From an uncultured SAR116 cluster alpha proteobacterium (lineage in GTDB: Bacteria; Pseudomonadota; Alphaproteobacteria; Puniceispirillales; Marisalimonadaceae), in NCBI GenBank assembly GCA_902539895.1, contig CACBMD010000007.1, forward strand, positions 1-59,245: a stretch of DNA of 59,245 nucleotides, written 5' to 3'. Within the stretch, counting starts at the first letter, position 1, and the number at the start of each line of letters is the position of its first letter. The notes beneath the pieces were generated by a model. It had not been told where the DNA came from, made no database searches, and worked only from the letters and a program-made list of their open reading frames with translations. Shown piece after piece: positions 9,467 to 58,365 of this stretch. The translations under genes were made by a program, and so were the position numbers.

Positions 9467-9474
9467 AATGATAT

Positions 9475-9975: not shown

Positions 9976-10040
9976 AAATTATCCTTTTTGGTATTACGAT
10001 AATCTTTTATCAGTATTTCACAATACATCATATAATTAAT

Positions 10041-38689: not shown

Positions 38690-38780
38690 TTATCTCACCT
38701 TTTGAGGTTCTGTTTAAAAAAACTAACTGGGTAGCTATATCAAGAACAATCATCATTAAGAATTAGATGTAAGGACCAAA

Positions 38781-40550: not shown

Positions 40551-42185
40551 ATGTTTATTAAAAAAAATCACAATACTTCACTTTATTATTTAAAACTGAC
40601 TAGTTTTTGGCCTGTATACATATTATTGGTTATAAGTGTTATTGCTTCATTCCCACATTATCTTGTTGAGCGAGACATTTGGGATGGCACTATATTTATT
40701 TATGCATTTGAAACTAAAAATTATGATCTTATTAAGGATACATTCCAAAAAGTAAATAACATACATCTTTCTTATTTTTTTATATTATTAGATAAAATAA
40801 GAATTTTTTTTGGTTTGGAAATATCTTTGGCACTAGATATAACTAAAACTATTTTTATGTTTTTTTCTTCCGCAAGCTTCTATCTTTTCTTAAGGAATGG
40901 TCTAAGGGTTGAAAAAAATATTTCCGTTTTATTTTCGAGTCTCTATTGTTTTTTACCAATATTTACTCTTCTTACTTCTGCTATTTTTTTTACAGTGTTG
41001 TTATATCCAACTTTAATCTTTGCCGGATTGGGCTTATTTCATACAGAGGGTAAAATAAAAAAATATATAGGTATTTTTTTGTTATTCTTAGTAACAATAT
41101 TCCCTGTGCATGTGCCTTTCATAATGATTCTAATTGCTATCATATACTTGCGCCAAATAAATTATGTATCTACGAAAAAGAACTTATTAAATATTGCGAC
41201 TCCTTTAGTTACATCTATCCTAGGACTTTTGTTTTATATTGTCGGTTTTGAAGATATATCAGCAGGCTACAAGTATTATGGTTCTTGGAATAATTTTACT
41301 TATGGCTTGGATATGTTTTTACAGTACTCCGAATTTTTATTTATATCGTTAACAATACCCATATCATTAGTTGTCTATAAGATAACAAAAGACCCAAAAC
41401 TAACTTTCTTACTTGTTCTCTTTGTTTTTGTTTTGGTGGTGGTATCTGTTATTCCATATGCGTTATACAACAAACAACCAATTTGTGTAATCGATACCAA
41501 TTGTAAAGAAAATATTTATGACTGGAGAGAAAGGCATGCAATGATGTTGCTTTTTTCATTCTTTATAATGTCTGCAATAGCTATGAATTTTTCTAATTCT
41601 TTCTCTCGCATTAACAAATGTTTATTAATATGTTTGACATCATTGATTTTTCTATATTCTTTGCTTCCCGTATACATTTTAAACCATAAAAGAAATGTCA
41701 TTAGAGAAGCATGGATGACACAAATTAGTGAACAGATAGCTATATTACCTAAAAAATATAATTTTGTACAAGTAATAATGCCAAGTACAGGCATATTATA
41801 TCGTTTACGATCATATGATTTCGATTACTTGGCATATAAGCAGGGTAGAGATAATGTTGTGTTTTCTCTTACTATGGTTGATGCTAGGCATGCTACTTCA
41901 CATAAAGATTATTTTATTGTTCCAGACGAGCCTGATTTTAAAAAGGTTGTTCGAGATATGGCTTCGAGAGTTAAGACTTCTGAATATATCAAAAGTAAAC
42001 GAATGCTTCACAATTGGAAAGCCCCTTTATGTGGGGCTCGATATATTATTTCTTCGGTAGATCCAAAATTATATGATCTGTTTGATATGGAAAAAAATGA
42101 CATAACTAAATGGGATATTAGTTATTTTCCAAAAGTACCAAAAATCACCTTTAATTTGTTAGCTATACAAGGGAATGGTTGCTAA
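40551..42185 (+). CDS. Multi-pass membrane protein, possible GT-C-type glycosyltransferase
   Basis: A 544-residue protein with about ten hydrophobic helices from residue 16 to about 380 and a soluble C-terminal domain of about 160 residues. The first periplasmic loop contains VERDIWDG, whose acidic residues sit where GT-C transferases keep their catalytic Asp. The layout fits a lipid-linked-sugar transferase or polymerase-like protein of a surface-glycan locus, but I cannot name a family. ATG with AAGGATGA directly before it. First gene of the island's forward cluster. Confidence 0.65.
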   Translation: MFIKKNHNTSLYYLKLTSFWPVYILLVISVIASFPHYLVERDIWDGTIFIYAFETKNYDLIKDTFQKVNNIHLSYFFILLDKIRIFFGLEISLALDITKTIFMFFSSASFYLFLRNGLRVEKNISVLFSSLYCFLPIFTLLTSAIFFTVLLYPTLIFAGLGLFHTEGKIKKYIGIFLLFLVTIFPVHVPFIMILIAIIYLRQINYVSTKKNLLNIATPLVTSILGLLFYIVGFEDISAGYKYYGSWNNFTYGLDMFLQYSEFLFISLTIPISLVVYKITKDPKLTFLLVLFVFVLVVVSVIPYALYNKQPICVIDTNCKENIYDWRERHAMMLLFSFFIMSAIAMNFSNSFSRINKCLLICLTSLIFLYSLLPVYILNHKRNVIREAWMTQISEQIAILPKKYNFVQVIMPSTGILYRLRSYDFDYLAYKQGRDNVVFSLTMVDARHATSHKDYFIVPDEPDFKKVVRDMASRVKTSEYIKSKRMLHNWKAPLCGARYIISSVDPKLYDLFDMEKNDITKWDISYFPKVPKITFNLLAIQGNGC

Positions 42186-42234
42186 ACTTACAGAAATATG
42201 CTTGTAAAATATATACTATTATTGGTTTTTAGAG

Positions 42235-42939
42235 ATGATACCCATTAAAAGAGTTGCCATACAACAGTCTAACTATATTCCTTGGAAAGGATATTTTGAT
42301 ATGATCGCAGCTGTCGATGAGTTTATTTTATTTGATGATATGCAATATACACGTCGAGATTGGCGTAATCGTAATCTAATTAAAACACCTAATGGTGTGC
42401 AATGGTTGTCTGTGCCAGTGCAGGTCAAAGGAAAGTATCACCAAAAAATCAAAGAAACTGAAATTGATGGCACTGATTGGCAAACATCTCACTGGAATCT
42501 ACTGAGACAGAACTATCGTCATGCACCTCACTTTGATGATATTGCGGAGTGGTTGGAGCCACTTTATAGAGAAAGGGATTTTATCAATCTCTCTAAGATG
42601 AATAGCTGTTTTATTGAAGCAATTTGTAATTATCTTTCTATTGATACTGTGATTACAAATTCATGGGACTATGAATTGGTTGATGGAAAAACAGAACGCT
42701 TATGTGACCTTTGCAGGAAGGCGGGAGGTACTGAGTATATCTCAGGTCCCGCAGCAAAGGATTATATTGATGAAGTTATCATTAAAGATATGGGCATAAA
42801 GCTAATATGGTTTGATTATTCCAATTATCCTGAATACCCTCAGTTATGGGGTGAATTTACTCATAGGGTAACTATTCTAGATTTGTTATTTAATTGTGGA
42901 AAAAAATCTACTCAATATATGAGGTATATCAAAAAATGA
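42235..42939 (+). CDS. WbqC-family protein
   Basis: The 234-residue protein has the WbqC family signature: RVAIQQSNYIPWKGYFDMI at the start, FILFDDMQYTRRDWRNRN, and VPVQVKG. WbqC proteins occur in O-antigen and capsule loci, and their biochemical role is not settled; an acyl- or aminoacyl-transfer role on amino sugars has been suggested by context. It overlaps the next glycosyltransferase by ATGA. Confidence 0.88.
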   Translation: MIPIKRVAIQQSNYIPWKGYFDMIAAVDEFILFDDMQYTRRDWRNRNLIKTPNGVQWLSVPVQVKGKYHQKIKETEIDGTDWQTSHWNLLRQNYRHAPHFDDIAEWLEPLYRERDFINLSKMNSCFIEAICNYLSIDTVITNSWDYELVDGKTERLCDLCRKAGGTEYISGPAAKDYIDEVIIKDMGIKLIWFDYSNYPEYPQLWGEFTHRVTILDLLFNCGKKSTQYMRYIKK

Positions 42940-43862
42940 AGCTCTCGATTGTAACTACACTGTATGACTCTGCGCCATATGTAAAAGAGTTTTATAGAAG
43001 AATGAGCACTGAGGCGAAAAAAATATCAAATGAATATGAAATTATTCTTGTAGATGATGGATCTCCTGATGACAGTTTATTGCAGAGTGTGTCTTTACAT
43101 AAAAAAGACAGTAAGTTAAGAATAATTCAGCTATCGCGAAACTTTGGTCAGCATAAGGCAATTATGACTGGTCTTTCTTATGCTAAAGGCGATTATGTAT
43201 TTTTAATTGATTCTGATTTAGAAGAAGAGCCGGAACTATTGGGAAATTTTTGGGAAACAATTCAAAAAAATCATGATTTAGATGTTGTTTATGGGGTCCA
43301 AGAAAGTAGGAAGGGTGGTTGGTTTGAACGGTGGAGTGGTAACTTGTTTTACAAAATATTTAACTTCCTTTCTGATTCAAAAATTCCACATAATCCATTG
43401 AATTTAAGGCTGATGTCTAAAAAATATGTCAAAGAATTGATTGCAAATAAAGATAAATCAATATTCATTGGAGGTCTATTTATTTATACAGGTTTTAATC
43501 AGGTTGCATTATTTTGTAACAAGAAACACAAAGGTAGTACAACTTATAGTTTATTTAAAAAGCTTAGTCAAAGTGCGATTGGTATAGTCTCGTTTAGTTC
43601 TAAGCCATTATATTACGTTTTTTATGTAGGTATATTTTTATCAATAATATCCTTTGTTAGTATTATTTATCTTGTTATTAATAGAGTGTTTTTTTCATTA
43701 ACGGTTGATGGGTGGACAAGTCTAATTGTTTCTGTTTATCTTTTAGGTGGTATAGCAATTGCCGGAATCGGAGTAGTTGGTATTTATGTGGCGAAGGTCT
43801 ATGAAGAAGTTAAAGATAGACCGCTAACTATTATTAAAAACACCTGGGGTTTAAATACGTGA
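42936..43862 (+). CDS. Family 2 glycosyltransferase (GtrB/ArnC type)
   Basis: From the ATG at 42936, which overlaps the wbqC stop as ATGA, the protein has 308 residues. The GT-A domain starts KLSIVTTLYDSAPYV, with LVDDGSPDDS, and the DxD-type motif is LIDSDLEEEPE. Two C-terminal transmembrane helices (about residues 225-290) are as in undecaprenyl-phosphate glycosyltransferases such as GtrB, ArnC and Dpm1 relatives. It probably loads a sugar onto undecaprenyl phosphate for membrane-side transfer. Confidence 0.88.
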   Translation: MKLSIVTTLYDSAPYVKEFYRRMSTEAKKISNEYEIILVDDGSPDDSLLQSVSLHKKDSKLRIIQLSRNFGQHKAIMTGLSYAKGDYVFLIDSDLEEEPELLGNFWETIQKNHDLDVVYGVQESRKGGWFERWSGNLFYKIFNFLSDSKIPHNPLNLRLMSKKYVKELIANKDKSIFIGGLFIYTGFNQVALFCNKKHKGSTTYSLFKKLSQSAIGIVSFSSKPLYYVFYVGIFLSIISFVSIIYLVINRVFFSLTVDGWTSLIVSVYLLGGIAIAGIGVVGIYVAKVYEEVKDRPLTIIKNTWGLNT

Positions 43863-44790
43863 AGTGGAAAAAATTACACACTTATTTTCTTTGAAATCGA
43901 ATAAAAGTATATTGTGTTCGCATGCAATGGTGCCATTGGCTAAACATTTAGAAAATTATTTATACAAAATTTACCTCACATCAAGAGATCAATTAGGGCG
44001 AGGTCGCATTTTTAACATTGTTGAAAATCTTATGGACATGGTTGTTGAAAACAAATCTCCCACGTTGGCACTAGATATAGGTTCAGTTGGTATGTTTGAC
44101 GATATGGGTGTGACTTCTGGTTGTATTGTAGATGTTAACGGCGAGGAATGCTTTTATTACAGTGGAATTAATGTTAGAAATATTATTCCTTTCTCAAGTA
44201 ATACTGGCAGTGCTCAAAAAAATACAGACGGTAGCTAGAAGCGCAAGTATGATGGCCCTATTTTAGATCGGAATCATTTCGAACCACATTTTTCAACAAT
44301 GCTGTACATACTACATTTTAATAATATTTTTCATGTATGGTATCTTTCTGGTGTTCGTTGGGAAGAAGATTTACTCAACAAAAGTGGAGTTAAGCACTAC
44401 TATAATATTAAATATGCAAGTTCTAATGATGGTGTTAATTGGAATCAGACTGGACAAGTTGCTATTGACTTTAAAGATAAGTATGAATATGCAATTGCTC
44501 GTCAATGTGTTATTAAAGACGTATTAAATGATTTTAAGATGTGGTATTCATATCGTGCACAAAAAGTAATTAATACTTATCGCATCGGTTATGCCGAATC
44601 AGAAGATGGAATAAATTGGGTAAGGAAGGATGATGATGCGGGTATGGACGTAAGTAATTCAGGCTGGGACAGTGGAATGATATGTTATCCTCACGTTTTT
44701 GATCATAAAGAGAAAAGGTATATGTTATATAATGGTAATGACTATGGGAAAACAGGGTTTGGATTGGCTGTGTTGGAGTATGGCTATTGA
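43859..44790 (+). pseudogene. Broken beta-propeller glycosidase-like gene (paralogue of 48041-48964)
   Basis: The intact paralogue begins with GTG overlapping the preceding TGA, and so does this one (GTG 43859, reading MKWKKLHTYF then a stop). The homologous sequence continues in another frame from 43864, so there is a frameshift within the first dozen codons. In that frame a single in-frame TAG at 44236-44238 interrupts the gene. Sequence on both sides matches the paralogue (ALDIGSVGMFDDMGVTSG before it, KYDGPILDRN and WYLSGVRW after). The total length equals the intact copy. Confidence 0.85.
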
Positions 44791-45452
44791 AAAAGGTTTT
44801 GCTAGCCGGTAATTCAATTACTGCAGATATATTATATTCATATTTAAAAGATGATACCAGATATGAAGTGATCGGTACTACAGTCGATGATGACTATATA
44901 AACTTTAATTGTATAAATGGCATTAATTCTTTTGGGATATCTCAGTTGACGAGTCTCTTCTCACCCAATGATTTAACAATCATTATGGCCATGGGTTATG
45001 ACAACTTGAATCGAGAACGAGAATCTATGTTTTTTAGATTGAAAGAACTTGGATATACTATAGAAACTTATATTCATCCAGATGCACGTATATATAGTAA
45101 AAAACAATTAGGCGAGGGTTGCGTTATTCTATCCAATACTGTCATTGAGCCGCACGTTTTACTCGGAGAGAATTCAATGATTTGGTGTAACGTTACACTT
45201 GCACATCACTGTCAGGTAGCAGAACACTGTTGGATTGCATCAGGTGCTGTCATTTCTGGGCAGGCAAATATTTTGCGTAATAGTTTTGTTGGTGTAAATG
45301 CTACTATTGTGAATAAGATAACTGTAGGTGAACTAAATATCATCGGCGCAGCAGCAATGATTTCTAAGGATACAAAACCAAACACTGTACATTTGTCGCG
45401 GTCTGCAGAAGAATTTCGATATTCATCTGATAATTATGTAAAGTTTTTCTGA
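44787..45452 (+). CDS. NeuD/PglD-family sugar O/N-acyltransferase
   Basis: A 221-residue left-handed beta-helix acyltransferase. The N-terminal Rossmann-like segment MKKVLLAGNSITADIL is typical of the NeuD/PglD group, followed by hexapeptide repeats (about 95-200) with the catalytic-type His pair in LAHHCQVAEHCW. It should transfer an acetyl or other acyl group to a sugar hydroxyl or amine. The TTG start overlaps the end of the preceding pseudogene as TTGA. A truncated paralogue is at 48952. Confidence 0.85.
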   Translation: MKKVLLAGNSITADILYSYLKDDTRYEVIGTTVDDDYINFNCINGINSFGISQLTSLFSPNDLTIIMAMGYDNLNRERESMFFRLKELGYTIETYIHPDARIYSKKQLGEGCVILSNTVIEPHVLLGENSMIWCNVTLAHHCQVAEHCWIASGAVISGQANILRNSFVGVNATIVNKITVGELNIIGAAAMISKDTKPNTVHLSRSAEEFRYSSDNYVKFF

Positions 45453-45459
45453 GTTTAAT

Positions 45460-45699
45460 ATGAATGAGCGTTTAAAAAATGTTTTAGCTGATGTATTTGA
45501 TTTGAAAGAAAGTGATATACATTTGCAACTAACAAAAAATGATGTTGCTAAATGGGACTCCTTAAAACAGATGGACTTAGTTATGACACTTGAAAGGGAG
45601 TACTCAATTACACTCGAAATCCTTGATATTATAAAAATGCAATCGGTTGAAAGCATTATTGAAGTGCTTTTTGACAAAGGAGTTGAACTTGGAAATTGA
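45460..45699 (+). CDS. Stand-alone acyl carrier protein
   Basis: A 79-residue acidic helical protein with the phosphopantetheine site WDSLKQMDLV (Ser34). It does not lie in a fatty-acid cluster, but between a NeuD-like transferase and an SDR, with a free adenylation domain 4 kb downstream. It is therefore best seen as a dedicated carrier for an activated acyl or aminoacyl group that is attached to the glycan. Its end overlaps the SDR start. Confidence 0.9.
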   Translation: MNERLKNVLADVFDLKESDIHLQLTKNDVAKWDSLKQMDLVMTLEREYSITLEILDIIKMQSVESIIEVLFDKGVELGN

Positions 45700-46429
45700 G
45701 GGTACGATAGTACTTGTTACTGGTGGAGCTAATGGGTTGGGACTTGCGATTTCTGAATATCTTTCTGCTAAAGGTGCAAAGGTGGTAGTTGCCGATCTGG
45801 ACATGGATGCATTAAAAATACTTCCAGATAAAATAGAAAGATATCAAATGGATGTAACAAAACCTGCAGATGTTAAATCGGTCGTTGAAAAAATTATAAA
45901 GCAACATGACCGTATCGATGTGTTGATAAATAATGCGGGAGTTATTTTCAGTGAGTCATTTGTCGATATCACCAATCCTGATGGAATCATGCATGATTAT
46001 GGGCGGTTTAAAGATTCTCTTACTGTTAATCTTGACTCTGTATTTATCGTCACCTCAGCTGTAGTTGAGGAGATGGTACAACGTAGAATAAAGGGTAATA
46101 TTATAAATATTAGTTCTATTAGTGCCCGTGGAAATGAAGGGCAGACAGCTTATTCTGCAGCAAAGGCGGGTGTGAATGCGATGACTATAACTTGGTCAAA
46201 GGAACTTGCACGTATTGGGATACGATGCAATGCGATCGCACCAGGGTTTATAGGTACCGATTCCACACATGCAGCTCTTAGTGTCTCTACTGTTAAACAT
46301 ATTTTAAGCCATACACCATTAAAGCGTTTAGGTGTTCCAAAAGAAGTTGCAAAAGCGATTGTCTCTATAATCGAAAATGAATTCATCAATGGAGTTATCT
46401 TGGATGTTAATGGTGGATTAACTATATAA
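45689..46429 (+). CDS. Short-chain dehydrogenase/reductase (FabG-like)
   Basis: From the TTG at 45689, overlapping the ACP end, the protein has 246 residues. The NAD(P) loop is [12 protein letters not shown] is conserved, and the catalytic triad Ser (NISSISARG), Tyr and Lys (YSAAK) is complete. The C-terminal GGLTI is typical of FabG-type reductases. Coupling to the ACP suggests that it reduces a carrier-bound 3-keto or related group; a sugar substrate is the alternative. Confidence 0.9.
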
Positions 46430-46433
46430 TCAT

Positions 46434-46607
46434 ATATGTGCATTGAGGGCTGTTTCATCACTAGATGGTATGACTGAAGATTACTATCCGTTTACACATG
46501 AATTTTTGAGTGAAACCGCAACAGCTATAATTAATAACGTAAAGGGTATCAATAGAGTTACCTACGATATAACTTCAAAACCTCCAGGAACTATTGAGTG
46601 GGAATAA
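46434..46607 (+). pseudogene. guaA: 3' fragment of GMP synthase gene (guaA)
   Basis: The frame from 46434 to TAA 46605-46607 reads a C-terminal GuaA segment: [19 protein letters not shown], then [18 protein letters not shown] and the invariant end [10 protein letters not shown]. Only about 57 codons remain and there is no start or synthetase domain, so it is a relic. The guaA 3' end is a known integrase target, so it may be an att remnant carried by an element. Confidence 0.85.
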
Positions 46608-46739
46608 CACATATAAAATAAATGCAATAATATTAGATACTTACAGCTATATACTTGTTGCTAAGTTGTTTCTAAGTTATAATGCTCTAAATGGTTTGCA
46701 GATGTTAGTTAATAAGTTTGTTACTAACTTCCTGAACGA

Positions 46740-47018
46740 TTGGATGCAATGAAATATAAATTACAAAACTACATTAAATCAATATACAGTTATACTGTAA
46801 CTGTTACTAAATGGTTGGTAACTGTAGTATCTATTCCTCGTGGGAAGGGTGTAATCTACACAACTCCTCAGCCTGGTAGTAATTACTACTTGATAAAATG
46901 GATTGCTGAAGAAAAGAAGTTTGTAAGGAAATCATTAATAACTGATAGTTTAGATGATTCCATCAATATGGGTGAGAACGAGATGCTTAGTATCCTCACC
47001 AAAATAAATAAAAGTTAA
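46740..47018 (+). CDS. Small hypothetical protein
   Basis: A 92-codon frame starts at ATG 46740. The product has a moderately hydrophobic stretch (YTVTVTKWLVTVVSIP) and a charged C-terminus. I do not recognise it and see no clear ribosome site. It lies between the guaA relic and a methyltransferase gene, in the most rearranged part of the island, and may be a remnant or chance frame. Confidence 0.35.
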   Translation: MDAMKYKLQNYIKSIYSYTVTVTKWLVTVVSIPRGKGVIYTTPQPGSNYYLIKWIAEEKKFVRKSLITDSLDDSINMGENEMLSILTKINKS

Positions 47019-47039
47019 AAAAATATTGCTAACGATAAG

Positions 47040-48044
47040 ATGGACAAACTGATGACTGAAATTTATGTAGCACCACAAAATCTCTCAACTTTATGCCTTA
47101 AAGATGACGGATCTGACTATGTATCTGAGAACTCTGAACGTTTTATCATCTCTGAAGGAATTCCAATCTTCCTTGACAAAGAGTCATTATCGAATGCTGA
47201 GAAGTGGTCAATAGATGAGTATGAGAACACAAAGTTATACTATGACAACGCAATAGACTGGCTTTTTGCAAGTTTTAAGGAAGACGAGGCTACAGTCAGA
47301 AATCGTATGATTGACGGATTAGAGTGCACTCCGAATTCAAAAATTCTCGAGGTTGGGTGTGGAACGGGTCGAGATACTGAATATTTAGCGAAGCGTCTCA
47401 GCGCAGATGGTCAAATATATTTCCAAGATATTGCTTTTGGCATGGTTAAGATTGCTAGAGATAGGATTAAAAAATTAGATTTGAAATGTAAGCATGAGTG
47501 TTTCGTTTCGAGCGCCACTAAATTGCCCTTTAAAGATGGCGAGTTTGATGGGCTATACAGTTTTGGGGGGCTTAATGAGTTTCCTGATCTAAAGAAAACG
47601 ATCAAAGAACTTTGTAGAGTTGTGAAACCCGGTGGTTATTTGATATTGGGCGATGAAAACATTGCTCCCTGGTTAACAGGTACTGAATATGCAAATATTA
47701 TAGTAAAAAATAATCCTATATTCGAACGGTCCAAAGTACCTCTAGAATACCTACCACAAACTGCTAGAAACGTTTCGGTGACCTGGGAAATTGGAAACTG
47801 TTTCTATGTGATAAAGTTTAAAGAAGGTAACCCACCTAGTCTTAACTTGGACTTACCACACAAAGGTTGGAGAGGGGGCACTCTTCGTTCCCGCTATTTC
47901 GGACAACTTGATGGGGTTAGTCCAGATACCAAAGAAATGGTTATTCGAGCAGCAAAGCAAAGTGGAACGAGTCTGCACCAATGGCTTGATGAAACACTTA
48001 GCAGTGCTGCTAAAAATGAAGTTTACAAAAACATTAAGGAGTGA
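47040..48044 (+). CDS. Class I methyltransferase with unusual C-terminal tail
   Basis: A 334-residue protein. The N-terminal 50 residues resemble the small domain before many UbiE-type methyltransferases (FIISEGIPIFLD) but lack zinc cysteines. The SAM loop ILEVGCGTGRDTEYL lies near residues 102-116, followed by the SATKLPFKDGEFDGLY and VVKPGGYLILGDE motifs. The last 40 residues (VSPDTKEMVIRAAKQSGTSL and on) look like a ribbon-helix-helix or similar helix pair. It overlaps the beta-propeller gene by GTGA. The acceptor is unknown, probably a sugar or glycan. Confidence 0.82.
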   Translation: MDKLMTEIYVAPQNLSTLCLKDDGSDYVSENSERFIISEGIPIFLDKESLSNAEKWSIDEYENTKLYYDNAIDWLFASFKEDEATVRNRMIDGLECTPNSKILEVGCGTGRDTEYLAKRLSADGQIYFQDIAFGMVKIARDRIKKLDLKCKHECFVSSATKLPFKDGEFDGLYSFGGLNEFPDLKKTIKELCRVVKPGGYLILGDENIAPWLTGTEYANIIVKNNPIFERSKVPLEYLPQTARNVSVTWEIGNCFYVIKFKEGNPPSLNLDLPHKGWRGGTLRSRYFGQLDGVSPDTKEMVIRAAKQSGTSLHQWLDETLSSAAKNEVYKNIKE

Positions 48045-48964
48045 AGAGATTGGTTTGGAAAAAACAGGGACTCTTTTTTAACGTGACATCAAATAGTGAT
48101 TGGATGCATTCTCATGCCGCTGTTCCTTTTGTTGATAAAAATCCAGATGGAAACAATTATCTCTACTTCACCACACGGTCTGTCTCAAATATCTCGTATG
48201 TCACAAGGCTTGAATTTAATGACGATCTCGAAATCATTTCAGAACCATCAGAGATAGTTGTTGGGCCCGGTGGGTTAGGATCATTCGAAGAACATGGCGT
48301 AACTGCTTCTTACTTGATCGATTTTTATGGCAAAAAGTTGCTTTATTATGTGGGTTGGAATAGAGGTGTTACTGTTCCGTTTCGCAATGCGATAGGCGTC
48401 GCAATCAGTGATGATGGCGGCAAGTCTTTTCAAAAATATTCTAATGGACCTATCGTTGATCGAAGCCCCGTCGACCCATATTTCGTGGCTGGTACTTGCG
48501 TCAAACCATTCGACAAAAATAAGCTTCAAATGTGGTACATTTCCTGTGTTAATTGGAAAATGGTTAACGATAAACCTCGACATTTTTATCATCTGAAACA
48601 CGCAACATCGAGCGATGGCTTCAACTGGGAACGAATTGGTCAAATTGCGATCGATTTCAAGGACGAGTTTGAATATGCGATATCCCAACCATGGGTGGTA
48701 ATAGAAGACGAAGTTTACAAGATGTGGTTTTCTCATCGAGCTCAAAAAGAAATAGACACCTACAGAATAGGTTATGCCGAATCAAAGGATGGTGTGAGCT
48801 GGAACAGACACTTGAACAGCGGTATCGACGTTAGCGACAGCGGTTGGGACTCAGAAATGGTTTGTTATCCGTATGTTTTTGAGCTTAAAGGAAATAAATA
48901 CATGTTTTATAATGGTAATGCATACGGTGGCTCGGGGATTGGTCTCGCAAAATGGGAAACGTAA
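48041..48964 (+). CDS. Beta-propeller glycosidase-like protein
   Basis: A 307-residue cytosolic protein made of repeated blades, with motifs such as SHAAVPF, LYFTTR, EEHGVTASYL, MWYISCVNW, KHATSSDGFNWE, MWFSHR, YRIGYAES and KYMFYNGN. This is the pattern of five-bladed propellers related to GH43/GH32/GH130 enzymes. No export signal is present, so it may act on sugar-nucleotides or lipid-linked glycans inside the cell; a catalytic role is unproven. GTG start overlapping the methyltransferase stop. The broken paralogue at 43859 shows the same coupling. Confidence 0.8.
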   Translation: MKRLVWKKQGLFFNVTSNSDWMHSHAAVPFVDKNPDGNNYLYFTTRSVSNISYVTRLEFNDDLEIISEPSEIVVGPGGLGSFEEHGVTASYLIDFYGKKLLYYVGWNRGVTVPFRNAIGVAISDDGGKSFQKYSNGPIVDRSPVDPYFVAGTCVKPFDKNKLQMWYISCVNWKMVNDKPRHFYHLKHATSSDGFNWERIGQIAIDFKDEFEYAISQPWVVIEDEVYKMWFSHRAQKEIDTYRIGYAESKDGVSWNRHLNSGIDVSDSGWDSEMVCYPYVFELKGNKYMFYNGNAYGGSGIGLAKWET

Positions 48965-49107
48965 TAACCAACACTTTGATTATTGGCATTAGGATAGGAG
49001 CCAAAGTGCTAGCCTTTTATCTGCAGGATAACCCAAGGTATAAAGTTGAAGGTTTTGTCGTCTACAGTTGCAGTCACTCTGAAACCCTCAAGGATTTACC
49101 TGCCTGA
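48952..49107 (+). pseudogene. Truncated NeuD-like acyltransferase fragment
   Basis: A 51-codon frame overlaps the end of the beta-propeller gene and reads NTLIIGIRIGAKVLAFYLQDNPRYKVEGF. This matches the N-terminus of the NeuD-like protein at 44787 (LLAGNSITADILYSYLKDDTRYEVIG). The beta-helix domain is lost. Together with the propeller gene it is the remains of a second propeller-acyltransferase pair. (The motif is quoted in part; conserved points are the I-G/A-G-x-x-x-A-x-x-L pattern and RY-x-V-x-G.). Confidence 0.7.
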
Positions 49108-49163
49108 GATTATATAGATATACCATCTAAGTTGTCACAATTAGTAATTTTTAATTAAGTAGG

Positions 49164-49532
49164 TTGTTCCAATTTGTGTCGTGGAAGAGCTGTGGTGTTC
49201 GACAAATTATTGAAAGATGGCAAAAAGATTGGCATATTACTTTTCATGAATCAAATGACTTCATAATCCAGAAAATTAAGGCGTTTAACAATATTAAACA
49301 AGGATGCCGGTTTATTGTAAATGGGGACGAATACAAAGTTTTTGGAATACAGAGAATGACAAACTCCTTTTTAGAAGTTATTGTTTGTGAGAAACAAGAA
49401 GGAGAGATAGTTTTTAGTTATGAAGGTTGTGTTGTGTTTCATAAGGATAGTGAAGTTTTGCGATTAATTGATGTTAAATCTGTTAAGGATGGATCACCAC
49501 TTAAGGTTGAAGCTAACCTATTACGCGGATAG
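49164..49532 (+). CDS. Hypothetical protein, possibly the C-terminal remnant of a formyltransferase-like protein
   Basis: A 122-codon frame with the segment FIIQKIKAFNNIKQGCRF followed by a beta-rich half. This weakly recalls the oligomer-binding C-domain of Fmt/ArnA-type formyltransferases (IRA...PGA pattern). The catalytic N-terminal domain (HxSLLP, N-x-H-x-D) is absent, so if the similarity is right this is a relic. It could also be an unrelated small protein. It ends 3 bases before the adenylation-domain gene. Confidence 0.4.
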   Translation: MFQFVSWKSCGVRQIIERWQKDWHITFHESNDFIIQKIKAFNNIKQGCRFIVNGDEYKVFGIQRMTNSFLEVIVCEKQEGEIVFSYEGCVVFHKDSEVLRLIDVKSVKDGSPLKVEANLLRG

Positions 49533-49535
49533 CTT

Positions 49536-51080
49536 ATGTACACTTATAATCTTGGAATTCTATTCTCAAATGTGCTTACTAACAAGTCGCATCGTCCTGC
49601 ATTAATCTATATTGAAAGGAATATCTGCTATGCAGAACTTTCTCATTTGGTTAGTGGTCTGACCTCTCTTTTGATAAGCAATGGATGTAAACGTGGAGAT
49701 GTTATAGCTATTGGACACAACAAACGTCCACTTTCTTTTGCATTAATGCTTGCCTGCCTTCGTCTTGGTGTCGCCTACGTAAATATTGATGTTGCTTCAC
49801 CGGTGGTTCGTTTATGTAGTATGTTACAGATTAGTGGTGCATCTTTACTCTTTTATGACGAATTGAAGTATAAAGAGAATATGGAGGAGTTGGCTTCTAA
49901 GAGTTTTTGTAAGTTGTTGCTATTGGATGAAGAACGATTACCTACCCTTTCTAAGGGTGATCGAGAACAGCATCAAAAACTGATGAGATTGGTTGATGGG
50001 TCTACGATTGCTTACATTATGTTTACATCGGGTTCTACTGGAGTGCCTAAGGGAGTGGCCATTACTCACCAGAATGTGTTGCACTTTATAAGATGGGGAC
50101 AAATTCGCTTCGGTGTTACTGAACAAGATAACTTTGCTAATCTGAGTCCAATGTATTTTGACAACTCTGTATTTGACTTTTATATCAGTCTGTTTTCAGG
50201 AGCATCATTTACTCCTATAAATCGTGAGTTGTTGGGATGCCCTTACGAACTTGTTCCCTTCTTATGTAAGATGAAATGCACTATATGGTTTTCAGTCCCA
50301 TCTCTCCTCATTTACTTAATGACGATGAAGGTGATGAGGGCTGAAGCATTGCCCACTATACGTTTAATAGTTTTTGGTGGCGAAGGTTACCCCAAGATAG
50401 AATTGAAAAAATTGTATGATCACTTTGCAAATCAGGCAGAACTTGTGAATGTTTATGGACCGACGGAATGTACATGTATTTGTAGTGCTTATACCTTAAT
50501 GGATATAGACTTTGACGATTTATCTGATCTGCCATCCCTGGGACAATTGAATCCTAATTTTGACTACCGTATTCTTGATGACGAGGATTGTGATGCATCA
50601 TATGGCGAACTTTGTCTTATCGGACCTAATGTTGCCTCTGGATATTTTAATGATCTAGAACGGACATCAGCCGTTTTCCAGACATTGATTGACTCAAGCC
50701 ACTTTATGAAGCGCATGTATCGTACAGGTGATCTAGTAAGGGAAGAAGACGGTAAACTTTATTTTGTAGGTCGCCGTGATAATCAGATTAAACACATGGG
50801 TTACCGCATTGAGTTAGAAGAGATTGAGCTTGCATTGGTAAAATCATCTAAAGTTACTCAGGCAGCAGTATTTTACCATAGAGAAAATTCAGCATTTGGT
50901 AAGTTAGTTGCTTTTGTAGCCTGTCTTGAGGTAGTAGATGAAAACTATTTACTAGAAGAACTGGCTGGTTTTTTACCTGACTATATGATTCCACAAAAAA
51001 TGGTTGTTATGAGTGAGTTACCAAAGACCTCAAATGGTAAGGTTGACCGACAGCGGCTTTTTAACTCACTTAGTGTATAA
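49536..51080 (+). CDS. Free-standing NRPS-type adenylation enzyme
   Basis: The 514-residue protein is an ANL-superfamily acyl/aminoacyl adenylase. Core motifs are complete: A3 IMFTSGSTGVPKG, A4/A5 with SPMYFDNSVFD and NVYGPTECTC, A7 YRTGDLV, A8 GRRDNQIKHMGYRIELEEIE and the A10 lysine loop TSNGKVDR. YFDNSVFD is typical of amino-acid activation (the Asp binds the alpha-amino group), so a DltA- or NRPS-like role is more likely than fatty-acid activation. There is no fused carrier domain; the separate ACP at 45460 is the likely acceptor. Confidence 0.9.
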   Translation: MYTYNLGILFSNVLTNKSHRPALIYIERNICYAELSHLVSGLTSLLISNGCKRGDVIAIGHNKRPLSFALMLACLRLGVAYVNIDVASPVVRLCSMLQISGASLLFYDELKYKENMEELASKSFCKLLLLDEERLPTLSKGDREQHQKLMRLVDGSTIAYIMFTSGSTGVPKGVAITHQNVLHFIRWGQIRFGVTEQDNFANLSPMYFDNSVFDFYISLFSGASFTPINRELLGCPYELVPFLCKMKCTIWFSVPSLLIYLMTMKVMRAEALPTIRLIVFGGEGYPKIELKKLYDHFANQAELVNVYGPTECTCICSAYTLMDIDFDDLSDLPSLGQLNPNFDYRILDDEDCDASYGELCLIGPNVASGYFNDLERTSAVFQTLIDSSHFMKRMYRTGDLVREEDGKLYFVGRRDNQIKHMGYRIELEEIELALVKSSKVTQAAVFYHRENSAFGKLVAFVACLEVVDENYLLEELAGFLPDYMIPQKMVVMSELPKTSNGKVDRQRLFNSLSV

Positions 51081-51185
51081 TAGATATGAATGAACTGTAT
51101 GATTTGAATATAATGTATGCAATAAACATAGATGTTGATAGATTTGAATACCAGTTTTTTGAATATAGTTGGATATAAATATTAT

Positions 51186-51554
51186 ATGAAATCATATTTG
51201 CTTATATTACCAGTTGCACTTTTAGTTACTTACAGTCAAATTATTGTAAAGTGGAGATCAAGTAGATTAGAAAATTTTGAAACGGATAGTTTTTTACAAA
51301 AATTAGTAAAACTCTTATCAGATCCTGCAATTTTATCTGGTTATATAATAGCTTTAATCGCATCTTTTTTATGGCTATTTGTCATTACAAAACTTACATT
51401 GACAACCGCCTTCCCTATTTATATTGGTATTACTTTTATATTGGTTTTATTAGGTGGGTGGGTTTTCTTATCGGAAAATATGTCTATTATAAAAGTTATC
51501 TCGATGTTTTTGATTTTTTCTGGGATCGTTTTGGCTCTGTTGATAAATGAGTAA
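51186..51554 (+). CDS. Small multidrug/DMT-type four-helix membrane protein
   Basis: From the ATG at 51186 the protein has 122 residues and four hydrophobic helices. The pattern AFPIYIGITFILVLLGGWVFLSENMS is that of EmrE/ArnE-like half-size DMT proteins. ArnE/ArnF flip undecaprenyl-phosphate-aminoarabinose, so a flippase role for a lipid-linked amino sugar is plausible here. A longer frame from 51132 lacks support. It overlaps the next gene by 8 bases. Confidence 0.75.
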   Translation: MKSYLLILPVALLVTYSQIIVKWRSSRLENFETDSFLQKLVKLLSDPAILSGYIIALIASFLWLFVITKLTLTTAFPIYIGITFILVLLGGWVFLSENMSIIKVISMFLIFSGIVLALLINE

Positions 51555-52440
51555 AAATTACCAACTACACTCTATAGAATATTGGTTAGCTGATCTTCGT
51601 GCATACTTTATTAGTGATGCACCTGAACTTATATCTTTGTTTGACACATACTCGGAAGAAGCCACTTTTGGTAGGCGTTATATAGAATCAGATTTGAAAT
51701 CTCTCAAGCATGGCTCAAGAATTCTTGAGGTTGGAGCTGGCTCATTGTTATTAAGTTGTCAGTTAGTCAGAGAAGGCTTTCACGTGACTAGTCTTGAACC
51801 AATAGGAATTGGTTTTTCTCATTTTAAAAAAATGCGTCAAATTGTAATAGATAGAGCAACTTCATTAGGATGTGTTCCTGAAATGCTTAATATTGATGTG
51901 GAAACCCTTGATCAGCATAACTGTTATGATTACGTATTTTCAGTAAATGTAATGGAACATGTTCATAATGTTGATCTTGTACTCGATAATGTCGTAAAGA
52001 GTCTCGTTGAAGGAGCTAGTTACCGGTTTACATGTCCGAATTATTATTTTCCCTATGAGCCTCATTTTGATATAATAACCTTGTTTTCTAAATCACTTAC
52101 TGAAAAGTTATATGGTTCTAAAATATTAGATCATGAGAAGATAAATAATACATTTGGAATGTGGGAGTCATTGAATTGGATAAATGTATCTAAGATTGCA
52201 AAGATCGCAAATAGAAGTTCGTCTGTTAAGGTTAGCTTTTATAGTAAATTAATTGTATCGACTTTTGAAAGGATATCATTAGATCCTATGTTTGCAAAAC
52301 GTCGCTCCCTTATTTTACGTAAAATAATTTTATTTTTTGTTGTAGTTAAGTTACATAAAATATTTCAATTTATACCTACTATGTTTCAACCTTTAATTGA
52401 CTGTAGACTTCAAAAGAAAATCAGCATGGAGACAGATTGA
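51547..52440 (+). CDS. SAM-dependent methyltransferase
   Basis: A 297-residue class I methyltransferase with SAM loop ILEVGAGSLLLSCQL, the acidic residue in VTSLEP, and DYVFSVNVMEHVHNVDLVL in the motif IV region. The C-terminal third contains a hydrophobic stretch (LRKIILFFVVVKL) that may touch the membrane, fitting action on a lipid-linked glycan. It overlaps the next methyltransferase gene by ATGA. Confidence 0.85.
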   Translation: MSKNYQLHSIEYWLADLRAYFISDAPELISLFDTYSEEATFGRRYIESDLKSLKHGSRILEVGAGSLLLSCQLVREGFHVTSLEPIGIGFSHFKKMRQIVIDRATSLGCVPEMLNIDVETLDQHNCYDYVFSVNVMEHVHNVDLVLDNVVKSLVEGASYRFTCPNYYFPYEPHFDIITLFSKSLTEKLYGSKILDHEKINNTFGMWESLNWINVSKIAKIANRSSSVKVSFYSKLIVSTFERISLDPMFAKRRSLILRKIILFFVVVKLHKIFQFIPTMFQPLIDCRLQKKISMETD

Positions 52441-53057
52441 TGGCTCAAATAACTCATGGGGTATGGTCTATTTTGTCTTATCCTTTATTTTATTCCATGC
52501 TGCAATCAATCATGGGGGCGCATAGGTCTCGAAAAAAGTTTGTTGTTGAACAGGTCAAACCTTTTCAAGGAATGAATGTGTTAGATGTTGGTTGCGGTCC
52601 AGCTGAAATATTAAACTATTTACCAGATGTTAATTATTGGGGGTTCGATGTTAGTGAAAATTATATAGCACATGCGGGTGCCAAATTTACAGCGCGTGGT
52701 AACTTTCAGTGTAAAGAGTTGCAGGAGACTGATATTGAGAACTTACCTAAATTTGATGTTGTTTTAGCACTTGGGTTATTACATCACCTTGATGATAACG
52801 AAGCACAAAATATTATGCAACTTGCGTCTAAAGCACTTAAATTAGGTGGGAGGTTGTTAACAATTGATCCATGTTTTGATCCTTCACAAAACCCTATTGC
52901 TAAATTTTTAATTGAAAAAGATAGAGGTCAAAATGTGAGAGACAAAAATGGTTATAAAAAAATTGCACTAGCGGCTTTTAATGATGTTCTTGTTGAGGTG
53001 CGCCATCAAGACTGGATCCCTTATACAAATTGTTTTATGGAATGTAAGAAATCCTAG
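52437..53057 (+). CDS. SAM-dependent methyltransferase
   Basis: A 206-residue class I methyltransferase with SAM loop VLDVGCGPAEILNYL, YWGFDVSENYI, and the motif LALGLLHHLDDNEA. The last third (TIDPCFDPSQNPIAKFLIE, then GQNVRD) recurs in a broken copy 200 bases downstream. The double ATGG start is at the stop of the preceding gene, so the two methylases are coupled. The acceptor is unknown, probably a sugar hydroxyl. Confidence 0.85.
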   Translation: MMAQITHGVWSILSYPLFYSMLQSIMGAHRSRKKFVVEQVKPFQGMNVLDVGCGPAEILNYLPDVNYWGFDVSENYIAHAGAKFTARGNFQCKELQETDIENLPKFDVVLALGLLHHLDDNEAQNIMQLASKALKLGGRLLTIDPCFDPSQNPIAKFLIEKDRGQNVRDKNGYKKIALAAFNDVLVEVRHQDWIPYTNCFMECKKS

Positions 53058-53242
53058 AAATTACACATTCTTTTGATTTGTGTGATAAAGAATTTTTTCC
53101 TCTATAATTCCGTATATTTATATTTGGTAAATGAATGGATAGAAACTCATACAGACTCCAACAGGTTATTATTTGGATTCAGTTCATACTCTTGAATATA
53201 TAAATTTATAACGGCCCATATTATCGTGAATACTCTTTTTCT

Positions 53243-54231: not shown

Positions 54232-55374
54232 TTGAAGATATCATTTAACCAACCATATATGACAGGTAAAGAACTGGATTATATCAGTAAAGCGCATTCT
54301 AATCGAATATTATCTGGTGATGGACCGTTTACAAAACTTTGTCATCAATGGTTAGAGAAGCGTACAGGATGTAATAAGGCATTGTTAACTCATTCTTGTA
54401 CGGCTGCATTAGAAATAGCTGCAATTCTAGTTGATATCCAGCTGGGAGACGAAGTCATTATGCCTTCGTATACCTTTGTTTCAACTGCAAATGCATTTGT
54501 CTTGCGTGGTGGTGTGCCGGTATTTGTGGATATCCGTGAAGATACTTTAAATATTGATGAACAAAAAATTGAATCTGCTATCACCCCTAGAACGAAAGCT
54601 ATTGTTCCTGTTCACTATGCTGGTGTGTCATGCGAAATGGACATAATTATGGATATTGCTCAACGTTATAATCTATATGTCATAGAAGATGCTGCACAGG
54701 GAATTATGTCAACTTATAAAGGAAGAGCCCTTGGCTCTATAGGACATTTTGGCTGTTTTAGTTTTCATGAAACCAAAAATATCAGTTCTGGTGAAGGCGG
54801 AGCTTTGTTGATTAATAATCCTAAGTTTGAAGAACGTGCGGAGGTCATTCGTGAAAAAGGGACTAATCGTAGCCAATTTTTTCGTGAACAAGTTGATAAG
54901 TATACATGGGTAGATATAGGCTCTTCATACTTGCCTAGTGAAATTATTGCGGCTTTTCTTTGGGCGCAAATTGAAGAGGCAGAATCAATCACAACACGAC
55001 GAATAGCTATTTGGGAACAATATCACGAATCCCTATATTCACTTGAAGTAGATGATAAATTAAGACGACCAATTATTCCTTTGAACTGCCAACACAATGC
55101 GCATATGTATTATCTTATTTTGGATTCTTCAGAAAAAAGAACGAGAGTAATTAAAGAGATGGAGCAACTGGGTATAAATACTGTATTTCATTATGTGCCT
55201 TTGCATAGTTCTCCCGCTGGTAAGAAGTATGGCCGTGTACAAGGAGAATTGAAAAATACAGATCATTTCTCAGAACGATTGCTTAGGTTGCCTTTATGGA
55301 TAGGGCTGGAAAAGCAGCAGCAAAAAGTTATCACAGCTATAAATCAGTTAAAATCACTAAAGAATGAAATATAG
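54232..55374 (+). CDS. wecE: dTDP-4-amino-4,6-dideoxygalactose transaminase (WecE/RffA-like)
   Basis: This DegT-family PLP aminotransferase converts dTDP-4-keto-6-deoxyglucose to dTDP-Fuc4N. The 380-residue protein matches enterobacterial WecE throughout: LSGDGPFTKLCHQWLE, GDEVIMPSYTFVSTANAFV, EDAAQGIMSTYKGRALG, the Schiff-base lysine in SFHETKN and EKGTNRSQFFR. Start is TTG 54232. With rmlB and rmlA downstream it forms a complete route from glucose-1-phosphate to dTDP-Fuc4N. The strong resemblance to enterobacterial proteins suggests horizontal origin. Confidence 0.93.
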   Translation: MKISFNQPYMTGKELDYISKAHSNRILSGDGPFTKLCHQWLEKRTGCNKALLTHSCTAALEIAAILVDIQLGDEVIMPSYTFVSTANAFVLRGGVPVFVDIREDTLNIDEQKIESAITPRTKAIVPVHYAGVSCEMDIIMDIAQRYNLYVIEDAAQGIMSTYKGRALGSIGHFGCFSFHETKNISSGEGGALLINNPKFEERAEVIREKGTNRSQFFREQVDKYTWVDIGSSYLPSEIIAAFLWAQIEEAESITTRRIAIWEQYHESLYSLEVDDKLRRPIIPLNCQHNAHMYYLILDSSEKRTRVIKEMEQLGINTVFHYVPLHSSPAGKKYGRVQGELKNTDHFSERLLRLPLWIGLEKQQQKVITAINQLKSLKNEI

Positions 55375-55785: not shown

Positions 55786-56871
55786 ATGAAAAAGAAAAAT
55801 ATAGATCAACAGAGTTTTGTTATTACTGGTGGAGCCGGATTTATAGGCTCAGCTGTAATAAGATATTTAATAAAAAACACAAAACATAATGTTATTAATA
55901 TTGATAGCTTGACATACGCAGGAAATCTTGAATCTCTTACCGATGTTTCATCCAACGAGAGATATAAATTTTTAAAAATAGATATTTGTGATAAACAAGC
56001 TATAGATCAAGTTTTTAGTAACTTTTGTCCAGATGTCGTAATGCATTTGGCTGCTGAATCTCACGTTGATCGTTCAATTGATGGTCCATTAAAGTTTATA
56101 AAAACAAATGTTGTTGGCACATCTTATTTACTGGAATCAACAAGAAAGTATTGGCTAACATTAGATGGTTTAAAAAAATTAAATTTTCGTTTTCACCATG
56201 TATCAACAGATGAAGTTTATGGTAGTTTGGATAAACAAGGTATGTTTGTTGAATCGACTGCATATGACCCAAGTTCGCCATATTCTGCAAGTAAAGCTTC
56301 GTCAGATCATTTAGTACGTGCATGGAATAGAACTTATGGTTTGCCTGTTGTTATTAGTAATTGTTCTAATAACTATGGCCCATATCAATTTCCAGAAAAA
56401 CTCATTCCATTAGTTACGCTTAACGCTTTAGAAGCTATACCTCTTCCCGTCTATGGTAAAGGAAATCAAATTCGTGACTGGTTATATGTGGATGACCATG
56501 CCTATGCTTTATATAAGGTTGCAACAGAAGGGAAGTCAGGTGAAACCTACAATATAGGAGGGTATAATGAAAAAACAAATTTAGAAATTGTATATATGAT
56601 ATGTTCTATTTTAGATGAGTTAGTGCCGAATCATCCTATCGGCATTTCAAAATATGAAGAGCTCATTACTCATGTTGATGATAGACCTGGCCATGATGTG
56701 CGTTATGCGATTGACGCATCTAAAATACAAAAAGAATTAGGTTGGGTGCCAGCAGAAACTATTGAAAGTGGAATTCGTAAAACAATACAATGGTATTTAG
56801 ATAATAGTAAATGGTGCAGTAATGTTCAGGATGGTTCGTATTATAGAGAGCGCCTAGGAGTATCAAAATGA
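55786..56871 (+). CDS. rmlB: dTDP-glucose 4,6-dehydratase
   Basis: RmlB makes dTDP-4-keto-6-deoxyglucose from dTDP-glucose. The extended SDR of 361 residues has the NAD loop [30 protein letters not shown], the catalytic Thr/Tyr/Lys with STDEVYGS and [12 protein letters not shown], and [18 protein letters not shown]. It ends with ATGA overlap onto rmlA. rmlC and rmlD do not follow, so its product is used by the transaminase wecE and not for rhamnose. Confidence 0.96.
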
Positions 56872-57749
56872 AAGGTATTATTCTTGCTGGTGGTTTAGGT
56901 ACCAGACTTTACCCAATAACCAAGATTATCAGTAAACAATTAACCCCTGTTTATGATAAGCCGATGATTTATTATCCATTATCAATACTAATGCTAGCAG
57001 GTATTAAAGAAATATTAATAATAACGACTTCTCGTGATTTACCTCAATTTAAAATAGTACTAGGTGATGGTAGTCATTTAGGCGTTAATTTTACATATGC
57101 TGAACAACAATCTCCTGATGGTTTGGCTCAGGCTTTTATTATAGGTGAAGAGTTTATTGGAACTAATGATGTCTGTTTGATATTGGGAGATAATATATTT
57201 TACGGGCATGGCCTTACTGATTTATTGTCGAAATCTATTTCTAATGTTGAAAATAATAAAAAAGCTACAGTTTTTGGATATTATGTTAAAGATCCTGAGA
57301 GATATGGAGTTGTTGAATTCGATAATCTAGGTAATGTAGTAAGCTTGGAAGAGAAGCCAAAAACACCAAAAAGTAATTATGCTGTCGTAGGTTTATATTT
57401 TTATCCTAATAGCGTGATAGATATTGCAAAGAATGTAAAGCCATCAGAAAGAGGGGAGTATGAAATCACATCTATTAACCAAGTTTATTTAGATCAAAAA
57501 TCTTTGGTAGTAGAATTAATGAGACGTGGTTATGCATGGCTAGATACAGGTACTCATGAGTCTCTTCTGGAAGCTTCTAATTTTATTCAAATAATTGAAC
57601 GTCGTCAGGGATTAAAGGTTTCTTGTATTGAAGAAATTGCTTATACAATGGGATATATAACTAAGAGTCAACTCATAGACTTGGCTCAACCCTTAAAGAA
57701 AAATAAGTATGGTCAATATCTGATTGCTCGAGCAAATGAAAGCAATTAA
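56868..57749 (+). CDS. rmlA: Glucose-1-phosphate thymidylyltransferase
   Basis: RmlA makes dTDP-glucose. The 293-residue protein has [20 protein letters not shown] from residue 7, the sugar-binding [36 protein letters not shown], and [14 protein letters not shown]. The order rmlB-rmlA with ATGA coupling gives the substrate for the WecE-like enzyme upstream. Last intact gene of the forward cluster. Confidence 0.97.
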
Positions 57750-58323: not shown

Positions 58324-58365
58324 ATTGGAGCGGGCGAAGAGATTCGAACTCTCGACATTCTCGTT
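58324..58365. repeat. Right att-like direct repeat within tRNA-Gly
   Basis: The 3' half of tRNA-Gly(GCC). It is identical to 40026-40067 except for one base and forms the right boundary of the island. Integration at this end left the tRNA intact. Confidence 0.8.

Follow-up and report, generated by a model that had tools for sequence, protein, structure and literature searches.

Some 4-amino-4,6-dideoxysugars of glycans are known to bear groups derived from amino acids. For the perosamine of Vibrio cholerae O1, the tetronate genes rfbKLMN(O) are thought to provide a ligase, a carrier protein, and a dehydrogenase that build the acyl group, a route that differs from the one considered here in its hydroxy acid and its enzyme families. 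The viosamine island of Pseudomonas syringae pv. tabaci 6605 (vioA, vioB, vioR, vioS, vioM, vioT, and acp), with a counterpart in P. aeruginosa PAK, is described as uniting a 4-amino-4,6-dideoxysugar aminotransferase, the NeuD-family protein VioB, the short-chain dehydrogenase/reductase (SDR) VioR, an acyl carrier protein (ACP), and a methyltransferase; the modified viosamine is missing in a vioR mutant (PMC3927599). Among the R-group genes wfpC–wfpG for the O-polysaccharide of Flavobacterium psychrophilum, a PglD/NeuD homologue is predicted to transfer the acyl group carried by a dedicated ACP onto the 4-amino group, and a ketoacyl reductase adjoins (PMC6519341). Free-standing amino acid adenylases load a carrier for a cell-surface polymer in the Dlt (DltA/DltC) and Alm (AlmE/AlmF/AlmG) systems (PMC3783018, PMC12930378, which assign the names AlmE and AlmF in opposite senses). 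In lincosamide synthetase, an adenylase (LmbC) and a carrier domain (of LmbN) serve to couple an amino acid and an amino sugar through an amide bond (PMC4351081). Here we describe a gene island in a 59,245-nucleotide contig stretch (CACBMD010000007.1, hereafter the window) from the 1.44 Mb, 68.8% complete genome (G000) of an uncultured SAR116 cluster alphaproteobacterium, in which an amino-acid-type adenylase stands beside an ACP, an SDR, and a NeuD-like transferase.

A first-pass annotation of the window had proposed that these proteins decorate an amino sugar. The analysis reported here favors, with somewhat better than even confidence, a horizontally acquired and partly damaged copy of a surface-glycan module that occurs across phyla. 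In the predicted pathway, the free-standing adenylase would activate one specific α-amino acid and load it onto the dedicated ACP, as conservation and knowledge of the family suggest. The FabG-like SDR, whose gene overlaps that of the ACP, would oxidize or reduce the ACP-bound group. Many of the relatives would have the amino acid nitrogen capped by a GNAT or a formyltransferase, a step of which only a remnant is found in the window. The NeuD-like enzyme would then take the carried group off the ACP and attach it to the 4-amino group of dTDP-4-amino-4,6-dideoxygalactose (dTDP-Fuc4N), or probably of the glucose epimer (dTDP-Qui4N) in other lineages. WbqC and a β-propeller protein would also take part, and a methyltransferase (MT1) would methylate the product. 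An ArnC-like GT2 may place the product on polyprenyl phosphate, an ArnF-like protein may flip it, and a 544-residue membrane protein may hand it to the surface glycan.

Conservation of the Gene Set around the Adenylase

The survey was seeded only with an alignment of two adenylases, those of the window and of a genome from the same genus that also carries the module (G012), against genome_contigs; neighboring genes were not used for selection. The scan patterns were adenylase peptides and thus favor similar adenylases. The locus counts rest on the best 80 of 200 confirmed relatives (L034–L113). Neighbors were called by tblastn of the window proteins against each locus (E ≤ 1e-3) within at most 10 kb on each side, less at contig ends. 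Counts over 77 loci omit L051, L102, and L109, where the contig ends at the adenylase.

Among the 80 loci, matches were obtained for the SDR (75), the NeuD-like protein (75), the propeller protein (71), a DegT-type aminotransferase (65), the ACP (58), and WbqC (58), followed by MT1 (53), the GT2 (34), RmlB (18), RmlA (16), and the formyltransferase C-terminus (6). The rarest matches were to two further methyltransferases, MT2 (2) and MT3 (1), and to the ArnF-like protein (1). When a hidden Markov model was built from the 58 locus ACPs and that of the window, an ACP was detected in 75 of the 80 loci, always at most 160 bp from the SDR match. The core of ACP, SDR, and NeuD-like protein is thus found beside the adenylase in 75 of the 77 loci, and the propeller protein joins it in 71. 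The core occurs with a sugar aminotransferase in 63 of the 77 loci, and ACP, SDR, NeuD-like protein, propeller protein, MT1, WbqC, and aminotransferase appear all together in 36. Because the core recurs in 75 of the 77 loci, the association is more than chance. The proposal that these four proteins form one set is supported by this comparison.

The adenylase tree, constructed from 80 sequences (the window, the G012 copy, and 78 loci; L102 and L109 were too short), spans 13 phylum-level groups; 3 of its rows could be assigned to none of them. The window adenylase groups with that of Cupriavidus basilensis (support 99/85), apart from the other SAR116 copy, with which it shares 47% identity. Gene transfer between lineages is therefore likely. 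No relative was present among 41 pattern matches in viral_contigs, no match was obtained at 1e-90 in plasmids, and the E. coli genomes gave no DNA match. Within 61 genomes drawn from relatives, including G000, a close adenylase was found only in G000 and G012, and the next best match was 29% identical. At E ≤ 1e-70 the adenylase was matched in 2 of 385 genomes drawn from the class and 3 of 398 drawn from the phylum, G000 being counted in both. Of the three other matching genomes, G397 (L117 = L046) carries the module, while G457 (L118 = L100) and G535 (L119, 39% identity) lack it; the adenylase subfamily is therefore wider than the module. At 18 loci with weaker adenylases (L016–L033, 1.5-kb flanks), no window protein other than the adenylase was matched among open reading frames (ORFs) of at least 80 residues, a length at which a short ACP could escape.

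The Substrate Pocket of the Adenylase

The best models for the adenylase are DltA and the amino acid adenylation domain. The scores for the D-Ala (Dlt) models fall under the cut-offs (277.6 versus 559.85 bits for TIGR01734 and 297.5 versus 476 bits for NF003417). The pocket code of the window adenylase is DNFFVGVCIK, with positions placed by motif and given in GrsA numbering; an alignment with LgrA agrees by eye. The code DNFF-x-GVCIK appears in 79 of the 82 pocket rows, which include the duplicates L011/L091 and L096/L097. Position x is V, I, T, S, or A in 78 of these rows and G in L077. Deviating codes are seen in L078 (DNFFVGVCMK) and L101 (DNFYVACCLK). The L109 sequence is truncated and matches the code over its readable part. 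L119, read from the translation, keeps the code save for M at 299 and C at 322.

The median pairwise identity of the adenylases is 0.446. Nine of the ten code columns are at least 97.5% conserved, whereas among all 514 columns 93 reach this level (hypergeometric p = 1.3e-6). The D and K of the code are generic to A domains, and rows from related adenylases are not independent of one another. By our own reading, no code position lies inside either of the printed scan patterns, though one of them stops directly beside position 278. The Asp to which A domains bind the amino group is present in 81 of the 81 rows with a letter at that position, and Lys517 is found in all 82.

An adenylase that activates one specific α-amino acid is predicted from this pocket. 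The first-pass annotation had left open an amino or a hydroxy acid, to be decided from the pocket residues: Asp235 and Lys517 indicate an amino acid, and because both are kept a hydroxy acid is less likely. Isoleucine was considered, as the code shares most letters with an Ile code, and was not adopted.

Carrier Protein and SDR

The attachment Ser of the ACP is invariant (59 of 59 aligned rows). The SDR is closest in sequence to the 3-oxoacyl-ACP reductases of the FabG type. All 68 SDR rows with a letter at these positions retain the Ser, Tyr, and Lys together with the Asp that follows strand 2; 8 rows are gapped. An Asp after the second strand of an SDR usually indicates NAD(H).

The resemblance to FabG speaks for a rival reading, in which the ACP carries a 3-hydroxyacyl or other group of the fatty acid type, like that of the viosamine island, with the adenylase acting as an acyl-ACP ligase for an amino-free carboxylic acid. 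The published ACP routes to 4-amino sugars, as far as the available texts describe them, use 3-hydroxyacyl groups (PMC3927599, PMC6519341). This explanation is very unlikely to be correct: the models and the two pocket residues described above point instead to an amino acid. No ketoacyl synthase was found by a Pfam scan of the island's proteins in the window; the other loci were not searched for ketoacyl synthases.

The Sugar and the Probable Role of WbqC

The window encodes RmlA, RmlB, and WecE, the known enzymes for dTDP-Fuc4N, with WecE over its cut-offs; this part of the earlier proposal stands. Ten locus aminotransferases were sampled. Those of L047 and L103 are WecE over the cut-off, and for those of L091, L060, L064, L080, and L098 the best model is DesI (dTDP-4-dehydro-6-deoxyglucose aminotransferase), under the cut-off. 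A LegC-type model, also under the cut-off, is best for L093 and L106, and L095 gave none at 1e-60. Because DesI is the best model in the second group, the sugar of these loci is likely Qui4N.

A WbqC at least 45% identical to that of the window is paired with a WecE at least 50% identical in 22 of 23 loci, and is found in none of the 40 loci with a more distant aminotransferase. The pairing is also seen where the adenylase is less than 55% identical: L058, L069, L103, and L108 have both the WecE and the WbqC type, L105 has WecE with no WbqC match (short contig), and L056, L057, L104, and L111 have WbqC with no aminotransferase in reach. WbqC also adjoins WecE in L009 and L010, two stretches of about 20 kb with no adenylase match. 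The agreement between WbqC subtype and aminotransferase makes it probable that WbqC works on the sugar side; the protein on that side would change with the sugar while the amino acid pocket stays fixed. The structure model of WbqC is confident (predicted local distance difference test, pLDDT, 94.5), and a fold search with it gave no match at E ≤ 0.001, the best rows including insignificant nucleotidyltransferase-like ones.

The NeuD-like Transferase

The solved structure nearest to the NeuD-like protein is PerB, with PglB and VioB also among the nearest. A His that aligns with the mutated catalytic His of PerB is kept in the window and in 70 of 76 rows. In five alignments the last 16 to 25 residues do not align with the solved relatives. 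Ordinary NeuD proteins end in a GxPA motif, which is linked to CoA binding. This motif was found in the last 45 residues of none of the 76 module NeuD rows.

Two enzymes had been suggested for the transfer to the 4-amino group. The NeuD-like protein is now favored. WbqC is less likely and was not retained as the first choice, on the indirect grounds that its subtype follows the aminotransferase and that it adjoins WecE where no adenylase is matched.

The NeuD-like protein could instead use acetyl-CoA to N-acetylate the amino sugar, with the group from the adenylase, ACP, and SDR placed elsewhere on the glycan by WbqC, a GNAT, or an unlisted enzyme. PerB and the other nearest solved relatives are acetyl-CoA enzymes, and WbqC is available in 58 of 80 loci. 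We regard this alternative as unlikely, since a NeuD-like protein is present in 75 of the 75 loci that have both ACP and SDR, the GxPA motif is missing throughout, and WbqC follows the type of sugar. The NeuD-like protein as ACP-dependent transferase is retained below.

Propeller Protein and Putative Capping and Lipid-side Proteins

The structure model of the intact propeller protein (copy b, pLDDT 94.6) resembles glycoside hydrolases and mannoside phosphorylases, with a best TM-score of 0.79. Candidate capping enzymes were sought within 7 kb of the adenylase in the 77 loci. A GNAT of one family (PF12746 in the tested example) is found in 35 loci and a formyltransferase in 10, with one or both in 43; another type of GNAT alone is found in 15 and neither enzyme in 19. 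Of these genes, 19 of the 35 for the GNAT and 8 of the 10 for the formyltransferase lie between the SDR and adenylase genes. The formyltransferase count is an underestimate, because a full frame in L088 was overlooked by this search. The formyltransferase of L041 is distant from all three of the Met-tRNA, sugar, and LgrA formyltransferases. The LgrA formyltransferase acts on a carrier-bound amino acid, and by analogy we infer that the enzyme of the module may cap the amino acid.

Lipid loading, flipping, and final transfer to the surface glycan are the least supported steps. For this putative Arn/Gtr-like set, the matches of the GT2 and the ArnF-like protein are under the cut-offs and the 544-residue membrane protein has no family.

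Layout and Damage of the Island

The features of the island are collected in Table 1. All genes from 40551 to 57749 are on the + strand. Neighboring genes overlap or are separated by at most 60 bases, save for gaps at 46430–47039, 48965–49163, 53058–54231, and 55375–55785. The G+C content of the island core is 0.345 to 0.366, versus 0.296 for bases 1–40500. The genes named in the first-pass annotation are present on the + strand at or near the positions assigned to them (ORF list and Pfam/TIGRFAM-type models). Two propeller genes and the NeuD, formyltransferase, guaA, and methyltransferase remnants had been overlooked in that annotation. The Fuc4N genes (54232–57749) and the gene for the multi-span membrane protein (40551–42185) lie outside the interval it covered (42235–51554).

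Table 1. Features of the island in the window, in gene order
Feature	Position	Strand	Evidence
544-residue membrane protein, putative final transferase by position only	40551..42185	+	9 spans (simple hydropathy count); no Pfam family
WbqC	42235..42939	+	PF08889, 272 bits
GT2, ArnC/PgfS-like polyprenyl-phosphate sugar transferase	42894..43862 (start uncertain)	+	PF00535; PgfS 185.9 and ArnC 125.8 bits, both under cut-off
Propeller gene copy a, GINT1/GH130-like	43864..44790	+	In-frame TAG at 44236–44238
NeuD/VioB/PglD-like hexapeptide transferase, putative ACP-to-sugar	44787..45452	+	TIGR03570, 149.1 bits (cut-off 160.8)
Dedicated ACP	45460..45699	+	PF00550, 28.0 bits (cut-off 20.8)
SDR, FabG-like	45689..46429	+	Proposed TTG start overlaps ACP stop; listed ORF begins at 45647
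guaA 3'-end fragment (last 61 residues), outside the pathway	46422..46604	+	TIGR00884, 65.9 bits, positions 250–310 of 310
MT1, S-adenosylmethionine-dependent methyltransferase with extra N-terminal part	47040..48044	+	PF08241, 77.7 bits
Propeller gene copy b, GINT1/GH130-like, intact	48041..48964	+	Family models, structure model
NeuD N-terminal remnant, weak match	48976..49062	+	29 residues, 41–45% identity, E 1e-4 to 3e-3
Formyltransferase remnant, C-terminal domain only	49164..49532	+	PF02911, 21.8 bits (cut-off 21.1)
Free-standing amino-acid-type adenylase	49536..51080	+	PF00501, 235 bits; PF13193
ArnF/SMR-like putative flippase subunit	51132..51554	+	28.8 bits (cut-off 99); 4 spans
MT2, methyltransferase-like	51547..52440	+	PF13489, 26.2 bits, just under cut-off; PF08241, 21.5 bits, just over
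MT3, methyltransferase	52437..53057	+	PF08242, 53.3 bits
Methyltransferase remnants	53279–53511 (MT3-related) and 53595–54077 (another methyltransferase)	+	Comparison with relatives
WecE, dTDP-Fuc4N aminotransferase	54232..55374	+	TIGR02379, 637.9 bits (cut-off 434.85); NF008687, 630.7 bits, over cut-off
RmlB	55786..56871	+	PF16363, PF01370
RmlA	56868..57749	+	PF00483

Propeller copy a contains one in-frame TAG, across which the proteins of relatives align. Behind copy b follow the weak NeuD remnant and then the C-terminal part of the formyltransferase only. The latter aligns with the C-terminal portion of roughly 290-residue proteins in L041, L045, L048, L053, and L054, where the full formyltransferase sits between the SDR and the adenylase. 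The simplest reading is a joining of two module copies with loss of the stretch from NeuD to the formyltransferase, after which each core gene would persist in a single open copy.

The 61-residue 3' end of guaA starts where the SDR gene ends. The stretch 46430–47040 had been considered a ligase remnant, and its first part turned out to be this guaA end. No guaA over the cut-off was found in the 68.8% complete genome. The guaA gene is a known integration site, and the fragment may be a scar of integration of the island there.

An in-frame stop in one propeller copy, the reduction of the formyltransferase and a second NeuD to remnants, and the guaA fragment and dead methyltransferase pieces inside the island would all suit a dying remnant that makes nothing in this organism, whatever the module does elsewhere. 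That view appears unlikely: single open copies remain for the adenylase, ACP, SDR, NeuD-like protein, propeller protein, MT1, WbqC, WecE, RmlB, and RmlA, and motifs are intact in all five proteins checked (the adenylase motifs, the ACP Ser, the SDR Tyr-Lys, the NeuD His, and the pyridoxal phosphate Lys of WecE). A partly damaged copy of the module is preferred.

Several features lie in or near the island. An orphan 92-residue ORF with no Pfam family follows the guaA fragment (46740–47018). Just left of the island, two adjoining minus-strand ORFs of 114 and 117 residues (38345–39134) are apparent copies of each other. A tRNA-Gly on the − strand (58326–58400), about 600 bases past rmlA, is a possible island boundary. 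In two same-genus genomes, surface-sugar islands adjoin, by eye, what seems to be the same dihydroorotase gene (L010, 17002–18042; L011, 2621–3664), which may be a hot spot.

Assessment of the Module

The core, the propeller protein, and the aminotransferase were all recovered beside the adenylase although the adenylase alone seeded the scan, which favors the module. Several observations weigh against it. No aminotransferase is within reach in 14 of the 77 loci, and the catalytic His of the NeuD-like protein is replaced by Asp in 6 of 76 rows (L103, L104, L105, L107, L108, and L111). The GT2 and ArnF-like matches are far under the curated cut-offs, and the window copy has a stopped propeller gene and has lost most of its formyltransferase. 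Finally, some adenylase relatives have no module, namely L078 and L100 (= L118 = G457), the two of the 77 loci that lack the core, and L119. A separate occurrence of the genes elsewhere, which the first-pass annotation had named as contrary evidence, is thus seen in these three and not as the rule.

Beside the adenylase of L100, a 273-residue ORF (9180–9998) resembles by eye an aminoglycoside N3-acetyltransferase-type protein; this pair may represent another use of the adenylase. Large ORFs (22–9743) beside the adenylase of L078 resemble, by eye, genes for polyketide or peptide synthases.

For the loci together, we judge the chances about even for a broader reading. In it, an as yet undescribed aminoacyl-carrier-protein pathway with one fixed amino acid specificity, conserved in 13 phylum-level groups, would place the same SDR-processed, often N-formylated or N-acylated amino acid group on Fuc4N or Qui4N in surface glycans. 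The transfer would fall to a NeuD-family enzyme whose donor has changed from acetyl-CoA to aminoacyl-ACP, with a glycosidase-fold protein as a near-constant partner.

Comparison with Known Systems

The activation and attachment of amino acids on 4-amino-4,6-dideoxysugars is mostly an open question, and a near-invariant pocket in very different bacteria makes it testable with a few purified proteins. If the pathway is correct, a glycan modification becomes predictable from sequence. The module also sets two little-understood families, the WbqC proteins and the GINT1/GH130-like propeller proteins, in a context. No paper on an acyl carrier protein together with O-antigen Qui4N, and none that brings adenylation, a carrier protein, aminoacyl groups, and O-antigen Fuc4N together, was found in the open-licence literature, and novelty in print is not claimed. 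The earlier statement that no described pathway has exactly this set agrees with the literature as far as available for the exact combination, although the idea has precedents in the vio, wfp, and lincosamide systems.

The Dlt and Alm systems differ in that, as far as their accounts extend, membrane or lysophospholipid-type acyltransferases carry out the transfer to teichoic acid or lipid A. To our knowledge, these systems contain no SDR, NeuD, or sugar nucleotide. Lincosamide synthetase belongs to an antibiotic pathway with the condensing proteins LmbD, LmbE, LmbF, and LmbV, and no NeuD or SDR is named in the available text (PMC4351081). In the viosamine island, acyl entry is by the ketoacyl synthase III VioS and the sugar is Qui4N; an adenylase, WbqC, and a propeller gene are not named for the vio set in the portion of the report available (PMC3927599). 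In the wfp system, ketoacyl synthases make 3,5-dihydroxyhexanoate for UDP-Qui2NAc4N, and the accessible part of the account names no adenylase (PMC6519341).

The window shares with the vio and wfp systems an adjoining ACP and SDR, a NeuD/VioB/PglD-family transferase, and an aminotransferase for a 4-amino-4,6-dideoxysugar. It shares with the Dlt, Alm, and lincosamide loaders a free-standing amino acid adenylase with Asp235 and Lys517 (GrsA numbering). Because the adenylase replaces the ketoacyl synthase, the locus is a variant and not a plain member of the vio/wfp kind. The module would thus join two known kinds of system, with a loader of the Dlt/Alm/Lmb type in place of the vio/wfp ketoacyl synthase.

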